Assembly (NCBI GenBank): GCA_024276465.1
Contig: JAJRXD010000098.1
Coordinates: 1 to 41,756, forward strand
Source: Deltaproteobacteria bacterium
GTDB taxonomy: Bacteria; Desulfobacterota; WTBG01; CAIYCZ01; CAIRTM01
Reading direction: 5' to 3'
DNA: 41,756 bases
The notes below the pieces were generated by a model. The model searched no databases. It saw only the letters and a program-made list of their open reading frames with translations, and was not told where the DNA came from. Below, one piece after another: positions 3,290-5,203 of this stretch (within the stretch, counting starts at the first letter, position 1; each line of letters starts with the position of its first letter). The position numbers and the translations under genes were made by a program.

Positions 3290-3354
3290 CCTCCTTGATT
3301 TTGTTTTTCCTGCTTAAAACATTTAAGTTCAAATGTTTTTTTGGCATCCTTGCC
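3290..3354 (-). promoter_or_regulatory. Flagellin 5' leader with candidate CsrA-binding sites
   Basis: In the transcribed (minus) direction, 3343-3354 reads GGCAAGGATGCC. This is a 4-bp stem with an AGGA loop, and its core CAAGGATG matches the CsrA SELEX core CARGGAUG. A second GGA lies in the Shine-Dalgarno (CAAGGAGGAT, 3288-3297) and a third in AGCAGGAA between them (around 3305-3313). Another inverted repeat, AACATTT/AAATGTT, lies at about 3316-3335. A hairpin site plus a site over the ribosome-binding sequence is the arrangement known from the Bacillus hag leader under CsrA-FliW. Neither csrA nor fliW is in this window, so regulation is inferred. Confidence 0.55.
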
Positions 3355-3445
3355 TTTTTGGGGTATTGTTTAGTGCGAAGTTATTTTGCTGGTTTTATTT
3401 TTATACCTCCTTTCTTAATTAAAATTAATTAATTATTTATTAGAC

Positions 3446-3674: not shown

Positions 3675-4055
3675 ATGGAGACAGTAAATATAAATTTAAA
3701 CAAGTTAGATTTTGAAGTCGATACTGTCCGGTCAAAAAAGGTTAACAGTAATGGCTTACAAGCGAGTACCAAAAACGATAAAGCAGCTAAAGCTGATACC
3801 GATAATGCAATAAACAGAAAAAACAACCTGGACAACAAAGAAATACACAACATTGAAACAAGCCTGAATAAGTTTCTTAAATCAATTCAAACAGACCTTC
3901 AGGTTGAAATTCATAAAGAAACCAAAACAGCTGTTTTCAAAATCGTAAAAAGAGATGATAAATCTGTAATAAGCGAAGTTCCGCCCAGTAAACTGTTAGA
4001 TATTGAAGTCAGGATTAGAGAAATGGTTGGCTCTCTTTTTGATACCAATGTTTAA
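3675..4055 (+). CDS. flaG: FlaG family flagellar protein
   Basis: FlaG proteins are small, poorly understood flagellar accessory proteins usually encoded beside flagellin or fliD; in some bacteria they affect filament length. This one has 126 residues. The N-terminal half is polar and probably disordered. The C-terminal half (about 60-126) has the family pattern: a helix (NKFLKSIQTDLQVEIHKETK), a strand, VIKR-like KIVKRDDKSVISEVPPSKLL, and a final helix ending in REMVGSLFD. The ATG follows AAGGGG at good distance. It is divergent from the flagellin and next to fliD, which supports the assignment. An inverted repeat with a T tract follows the stop. Confidence 0.85.
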   Translation: METVNINLNKLDFEVDTVRSKKVNSNGLQASTKNDKAAKADTDNAINRKNNLDNKEIHNIETSLNKFLKSIQTDLQVEIHKETKTAVFKIVKRDDKSVISEVPPSKLLDIEVRIREMVGSLFDTNV

Positions 4056-4357: not shown

Positions 4358-5203
4358 TTGAGTTTTTTAGATTATTTCAAAAAAGATCAGCACATTGACT
4401 TTGAGATCGTTACAGATGGTATAGAAAGAAAATATTCATCAATAGTCGATGAAATTTCCGAAACAGCTATAATAATTCGAATTACAGAAGATGACTTTAA
4501 TATTAAACAGTTTAAACCCGGCTCAAAAGGTGTTGTGTCTGGAAAAAGAAAGGAATTGCAATTCAGCCTGGATGTTGAAATAGTGACTGTAAAAAAACCT
4601 TCCTGTATTGAACTGAAACGCATTCCCTCAAGATCATATCTCAGAGTAAATGCTTTTATCATTATGGAATATAAAAAAATAACTGATAAGAGTGAATTTG
4701 AAAAAAGAAAAAAATACATACTGAACATGAGTTCTGACTGTGAAGATTATCTTTTTTCTTCAACACATCAGGGCTCTGAAGAAATTGAACCAGCGTCAAG
4801 TATTCCTTCTGAAATGTTAAGTGAAATTCACAGCATTCATAGAAAGCTTGATTATATTATAAAACTTTTAGGCAAATCTGATGAGGAAAATATTTTCAAC
4901 AGAGATCTTGTGGATGTTAATCTCAGCGGTTCCGGTATTAAATTTAAATGCATGGATGAGCTTCAACCAGGCGATTGTCTTGACATTAAACTTGTACTGC
5001 CCGTATCTTCACGTATCATAATTGAGTTGATTGGTGAAATTGTAAGAACAGTCCGTTTGTCTGAACAGGATGAGCCTTCTGTTGATAACAGGTATGAATC
5101 AGCTGTCAAGTTTGCTGTTATTAATGAGGATGACCGTGAGTTTATAATCAGATATGTTTTCAGACGTCAGAGGGAACTGCTCAGAGCAGAAGAAAGCACT
5201 TAA
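4358..5203 (+). CDS. PilZ-domain c-di-GMP receptor with a split PilZ domain (YcgR-like)
   Basis: This is a likely c-di-GMP effector for motility control. It is 281 residues long and starts with TTG (4358); the nearby upstream ATG at 4332 is out of frame and hits a stop. GGA at 4345-4347 is the likely ribosome site. Residues 1-85 form a beta-rich N-terminal domain of the YcgR type. The PilZ signature pieces are both present: RSYLR (92-96, the RxxxR loop) and NLSGSG (188-193, the (D/N)xSxxG motif). They are about 90 residues apart because of an inserted, mostly helical stretch (about 110-178), where a continuous PilZ domain needs only a few tens. Its position beside flagellar genes and the sigma54-like site upstream suggest a flagellar brake role, but that is inference. 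Confidence 0.82.
   Translation: MSFLDYFKKDQHIDFEIVTDGIERKYSSIVDEISETAIIIRITEDDFNIKQFKPGSKGVVSGKRKELQFSLDVEIVTVKKPSCIELKRIPSRSYLRVNAFIIMEYKKITDKSEFEKRKKYILNMSSDCEDYLFSSTHQGSEEIEPASSIPSEMLSEIHSIHRKLDYIIKLLGKSDEENIFNRDLVDVNLSGSGIKFKCMDELQPGDCLDIKLVLPVSSRIIIELIGEIVRTVRLSEQDEPSVDNRYESAVKFAVINEDDREFIIRYVFRRQRELLRAEEST

Follow-up and report, generated by a model that had tools for sequence, protein, structure and literature searches.

A flagellin mRNA leader with two predicted CsrA sites in a deltaproteobacterial genome, and its recurrence with sigma28-type promoters in Desulfobacterota

A flagellin leader under probable CsrA control

The flagellin gene in the 41.8 kb stretch of DNA analysed here (hereafter the window) is preceded by an mRNA leader for which control by CsrA is the best explanation, with a probability that we estimate at about 90%. 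The leader carries two predicted CsrA sites, one over the Shine-Dalgarno sequence (SD) and one upstream at a distance that a CsrA dimer could bridge (Table 1). Since this pair of hairpins recurs across the phylum with compensatory changes, the brake on flagellin described for Bacillus and Campylobacter is very probably at work here as well.

A sequence-only reading of the same DNA had proposed a CsrA-type switch from a short hairpin presenting GGA in its loop, and the letters and coordinates of that hairpin (hairpin 1 in Table 1) were confirmed. The GGA that it had placed in the SD is likewise there, but the reading had overlooked that the SD lies in a hairpin of its own, with a loop (CAAGGAGG) that matches the CsrA core CANGGANG within a C-closed hexaloop. 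The middle AGGA that it had named as a further target is present, but finds no support as a site: no CsrA-type hairpin surrounds it, and it is absent from two related leaders (L003 and L005).

Table 1 Features of the flagellin locus in the window.
Feature	Position	Strand	Basis or remark
Flagellin gene, 283 aa	3282-2431	minus	Pfam Flagellin_N (122 bits) and Flagellin_C (83 bits)
Leader of flagellin mRNA, predicted length ~158 nt		minus	from predicted transcription start
Sigma28-type promoter TAAG-N15-GTCGATAT	3472-3446	minus	sequence match, conserved
Extended SD-like element AGAAAGGAGGT	3415-3405	minus	11-nt run against the generic complement of the 16S 3' end
Hairpin 1, GGCAAGGATGCC, GGC-AAGGAT-GCC	3354-3343	minus	hexaloop with CsrA core CANGGANG
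A/T-rich 10-bp hairpin between hairpins 1 and 2	3339-3316	minus	fold
Middle AGGA	3311-3308	minus	outside any CsrA-type hairpin, not conserved
Hairpin 2, AATC-AAGGAG-GATT	3300-3287	minus	SD within CsrA-type hexaloop
SD CAAGGAGGA	~3297-3289	minus	inside hairpin 2
flaG-like gene	3675-4055	plus	62 bits; divergent from the adjoining flagellin gene
PilZ-domain protein	4358-5203		comes after the flaG-like gene

The CsrA dimer has two RNA pockets and can bridge sites that are 10-63 nt apart, performing best above 18 nt (PMC7652899). In the window leader, the distance from the GGA of hairpin 1 to that of the SD hairpin is 55 nt, which is close to the upper limit of this workable range. The A/T-rich hairpin that lies between the two candidate CsrA sites (fold p = 0.065 in the window) makes the path between them shorter; it is present in one relative (L005; p = 0.01) and is not a general feature of these leaders.

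For this leader we infer CsrA binding, repression, and release by FliW. Specifically, the two RNA pockets of a single CsrA dimer would hold hairpin 1 and the SD hairpin, respectively, and CsrA on the SD hairpin would block ribosome binding. By homology with Bacillus and Campylobacter, FliW, which is encoded beside csrA, would bind CsrA and lift the block, and flagellin that remains unexported in the cytoplasm would hold FliW. As flagellin would sequester FliW in this way, unexported flagellin would shut off its own translation. The CsrA/FliW/flagellin chain has been established in B. subtilis (PMC6529632, PMC7652899), and both the binding of CsrA to the two loops and the resulting repression have been established for flaA of C. 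jejuni (PMC4894983).

It is unlikely, in our estimate, that CsrA instead mainly activates or protects this mRNA, or that the abundant leader is mainly a sponge for CsrA, releasing other flagellar mRNAs from it. The flaA leader of C. jejuni does titrate CsrA besides being repressed (PMC4894983), which lends the sponge some plausibility. However, one site over the SD is the arrangement of direct repression, and a sponge function would add to repression rather than replace it.

Recurrence and covariation of the two hairpins

We counted A-N-GGA-N hexaloops (stem of at least 3 pairs, C-G closing pair) on both strands of the window and observed 4, when 1.4 were expected; 2 of the 4 fall within 68 nt, both in the flagellin leader. 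For comparison with other genomes, 80 relatives' loci and four family loci were collected, which gave 81 distinct leaders including that of the window, mostly from Desulfobacterota. Leaders with a TGGCA-N-TTGC-like match near the start were classed as sigma54-type (25 leaders) and those without such a match formed the other class (56 leaders), to which L073, with a weak chance sigma54 match, was reassigned by hand.

Upstream of the SD, 33/56 leaders without a recognisable sigma54 promoter contained a hairpin with GGA in a hexaloop, compared with an expectation of 0.8 from dinucleotide shuffles of a near-identical set of 59 leaders. GGA was the only triplet enriched in hexaloops; the runner-up of the 64 triplets reached 8/56. 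When leaders were selected by the loop and closing pair only (CANGGANG, 22-100 nt before the start codon), the core was present in 44/56 non-sigma54 leaders vs. 0/25 sigma54-type leaders (Fisher p 3.5e-12), and was thus absent from 12/56 leaders that have no sigma54-type promoter. The spacing between the two GGA in these leaders was 18-23 nt or 32-55 nt, all inside the bridgeable range, and in the relatives it falls mainly into two groups (18-23 nt and 40-55 nt). Rfam yielded no family match for the window or for the leaders of 16 relatives, apart from an unrelated cobalamin riboswitch (L007, 950-1141, minus strand; 108.6 bits), which lies ~360 nt upstream of a flagellin gene and runs on the strand opposite to it.

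Among the relatives, the second pair of hairpin 1 occurs as GC and AU, and the third as CG, GC, GU, UA, AU and UG. The constrained letters of this hairpin are in the loop (CA.GGA.G), while its stem letters interchange freely. Both sides of the pairs had changed in 25 cells for hairpin 1 (9.7 after shuffling) and in 37 cells for the SD hairpin (17.6 after shuffling), counts that cannot be read as probabilities because the sequences share kinship. With a control that preserves this kinship, in which the partner strand was slid, the covariation score was 0.417 vs. at most 0.088 for hairpin 1 (38 distinct sequences, the outer pairs having played no part in their selection) and 0.368 vs. at most 0.133 for the SD hairpin (all 56 non-sigma54 leaders).

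Folding of the single leader sequence is weak evidence. The centroid fold of the full leader contains both hairpins; in the minimum-energy fold, GGCA pairs with the start-codon region and hairpin 1 is not formed, and the stability of the leader showed no excess over shuffled sequences (z -1.1). This long-range pairing was considered as a switch in its own right and rejected, because the start region (ATGCCC in the window) differs in most relatives (ATGGGA, ATGTCT or ATGAGT) and the pairing is therefore not conserved.

The same observations bear on whether the hairpins could work independently of any protein, with an SD hairpin that modulates translation unaided (e.g., a temperature-sensitive or ribosome-opened stem) and a hairpin 1 that is structural or stabilising. 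The A/T-rich and easily melted SD stem would suit such a scheme, as would the weak single-leader folds and the finding that sigma54-type leaders also exceed shuffles at the second and third pairs of the SD hairpin. Nonetheless, we consider it very improbable: the constraint in hairpin 1 sits in the loop letters and not in the stem, a purely structural stem would show no preference for GGA over other triplets, and the genome has both csrA and fliW. A chance resemblance, which might be argued from the commonness of three-pair stems and the GGA that every SD contains of necessity, is already refuted by the comparative data, namely the excess of hairpins over shuffles, the covariation of both hairpins, and the conservation of their position and promoter class.

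Association with the sigma28-type promoter

The sigma28-like promoter anticipated by the sequence-only reading was found (Table 1), with the same boxes (TTAAGATTTTT..GTCGATAC) in L003, L005 and L086. It is the only conserved promoter, lying ~100 nt upstream of hairpin 1 and kept in three related genomes, and it places the predicted transcription start near 3440. A sigma70 scan of the minus strand returned no match. The genome encodes two sigma factors of the FliA type that score above the curated cut-off (G000:C162:20012-20680 and G000:C35:51803-52468), and in an own-genome search the window's flagellin was the sole close copy.

The hairpin tracks this class of promoter. At least six of the eight letters of the sigma28 -10 box were matched in 37/56 non-sigma54 leaders (2.6 expected), and where the sigma28 match was strong, 35 of 38 leaders had the hairpin core, vs. 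9/43 of the others (p 5e-11). In at least eight genomes, as judged by record names, one flagellin has the hairpin and no sigma54 match, and another has a sigma54 promoter and is free of the hairpin (L012/L048, L019/L060, L020/L044, L021/L047, L030/L056, L035/L033, L053/L057 and L073/L075). Sigma28-driven flagellins with the predicted switch and sigma54-driven ones without it, including paralogues in the same genome, provide a natural contrast, which makes it testable whether export-coupled feedback belongs to one promoter class. We also note that many Desulfovibrio-type genomes hold two flagellin classes (e.g., L033/L035, L053/L057, L020/L044). The sigma54-type class in these genomes has short leaders and no CsrA hairpin; the non-sigma54 class, mostly sigma28-type, bears the hairpin.

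csrA and fliW in the genome and its relatives

A search of the genome for csrA and fliW, to which the sequence-only reading had pointed as a check, found both, adjacent and behind flgL. There is one csrA (83.5 bits with PF02599) and one fliW (130.8 bits with PF02623) in this genome, which is 95% complete; the gene order on contig C133 is flgL-csrA-fliW, with 9 bases from the csrA stop to the fliW start. The RNA-binding residues of CsrA are conserved, with MLVLTR (MLxLTR) at the N-terminus and VHREE, as in solved CsrA/RsmE chains (e.g., 2jpp). Residues 2-69, including the C-terminal tail, align to the CsrA chain of entry 5dmb; the other chain of this entry is FliW, and is matched by the FliW of the genome.

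Across the genomes that contributed leaders, csrA was found in 45/49. In the window's order, a flagellin of this type occurs in 4/11 genomes, and fliW in three of these four (the fourth, whose assembly is also without flgL, is considered below), whereas it was found in no genome without flagellin; seven genomes of the order (G001-G005, G009 and G010) returned neither a close flagellin nor fliW. When csrA was searched in nine family genomes, it was present in the same three as fliW and absent from all five flagellin-less genomes of the family. This suggests that motility loss was accompanied by csrA loss, and it fits the view that the control of flagellin is an ancient function of CsrA and a central one (PMC4894983).

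In a few genomes, hairpin or flagellin and csrA do not go together. Genome G006 has the flagellin and no detected csrA, and was set aside as a natural csrA knock-out: flgL is likewise missing from its assembly, and the csrA operon is therefore probably just absent from the assembly. In draft G013, where csrA was not found, neither of the two flagellins (L006 and L009) has the hairpin; this joint absence is suggestive but comes from a single incomplete genome. Two other drafts (G016 and G022) have the hairpin and no detected csrA, which is probably due to draft incompleteness.

Comparison with known CsrA-controlled leaders

The window leader belongs to an already known kind, because its plan is the same as that of C. 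jejuni flaA (PMC4894983). There, too, a flagellin gene is preceded by two adjacent stem-loops with ANGGA/CANGGANG hexaloops, of which the second covers the ribosome-binding site; relatives show compensatory changes, and FliW is encoded in the genome. Many Desulfobacterota leaders, at 18-23 nt, have a spacing like the 21 nt of flaA, but that of the window is longer and interrupted by a hairpin. The window leader also differs in its length (~158 nt vs. 45 nt for flaA) and in the extended SD-like element near its predicted 5' end. Furthermore, csrA and fliW are adjacent in the window's genome and are not adjacent in Epsilonproteobacteria.

The sequence-only reading had invoked the logic of Bacillus hag. 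Its proposal of CsrA-FliW control gains support from conserved, covarying hairpins that track sigma28-type promoters, but the closest experimental match is C. jejuni flaA and not hag. With hag of B. subtilis, the window shares a CsrA site that covers the SD and another in the leader, a sigma28-class gene, and csrA and fliW as neighbours in a flagellar cluster. The gene order is csrA-fliW in the window's genome and fliW-csrA in B. subtilis, and the SD site of the window lies in a covarying hexaloop hairpin, the structure of hag being outside this comparison. E. coli glgC offers a similar use of a hairpin site that tethers CsrA, which then bridges to the SD (PMC7652899), but in a carbon storage gene of other sequence and with no FliW.

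We found no report of such a leader in Desulfobacterota in the open-licence literature, although this absence carries little weight. A 2026 study of Geobacter sulfurreducens dealt with CsrA-FliW in biofilms and left FliC open (PMC13407953). The new parts here are the phylum-wide comparative evidence, the split by promoter class, and the 5' element; by comparative evidence, a CsrA-FliW-flagellin brake that was shown experimentally in Bacillus and Campylobacter is extended to Desulfobacterota.

An extended SD-like element near the predicted 5' end

The extended SD-like element AGAAAGGAGGT lies ~30 nt downstream of the predicted transcription start, and it is complementary to the 3' end that 16S rRNA usually has in bacteria, the 16S sequence of the genome itself being without that end. 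Within the window's family, each of the four flagellin leaders of the sigma28 type (the window's own, L003, L005 and L086) carries the element. Overall, such an element was found in 10/56 leaders (0.36 expected) vs. 0/25 sigma54-type leaders.

This arrangement is reminiscent of the STAB-SD of Bacillus thuringiensis cry3A, in which an SD-like GAAAGGAGG lies close to the 5' end, far upstream of the gene's start codon, and has no start codon of its own (PMC4113751). The Bacillus element, however, blocks RNase J1, and the window's genome (95% complete) has no RNase J match above the family cut-off (best 22 bits vs. 400); therefore, the Bacillus mechanism cannot be carried over. The element AGAAAGGAGGT may serve to park ribosomes, or may offer CsrA a third point of contact. 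A more elaborate possibility, which we offer tentatively and regard as rather doubtful, is that the window's family has a three-part leader, in which the CsrA hairpin pair would be joined by a 5' extended SD that recruits 30S or a second CsrA dimer without initiation, and which would couple the CsrA-FliW switch to ribosome standby or to protection of the mRNA in bacteria that have no RNase J. An upstream ORF behind AGAAAGGAGGT was rejected for the window because no ATG, GTG or TTG follows within reach; a start codon follows the element in 1 of the 10 leaders that bear it.
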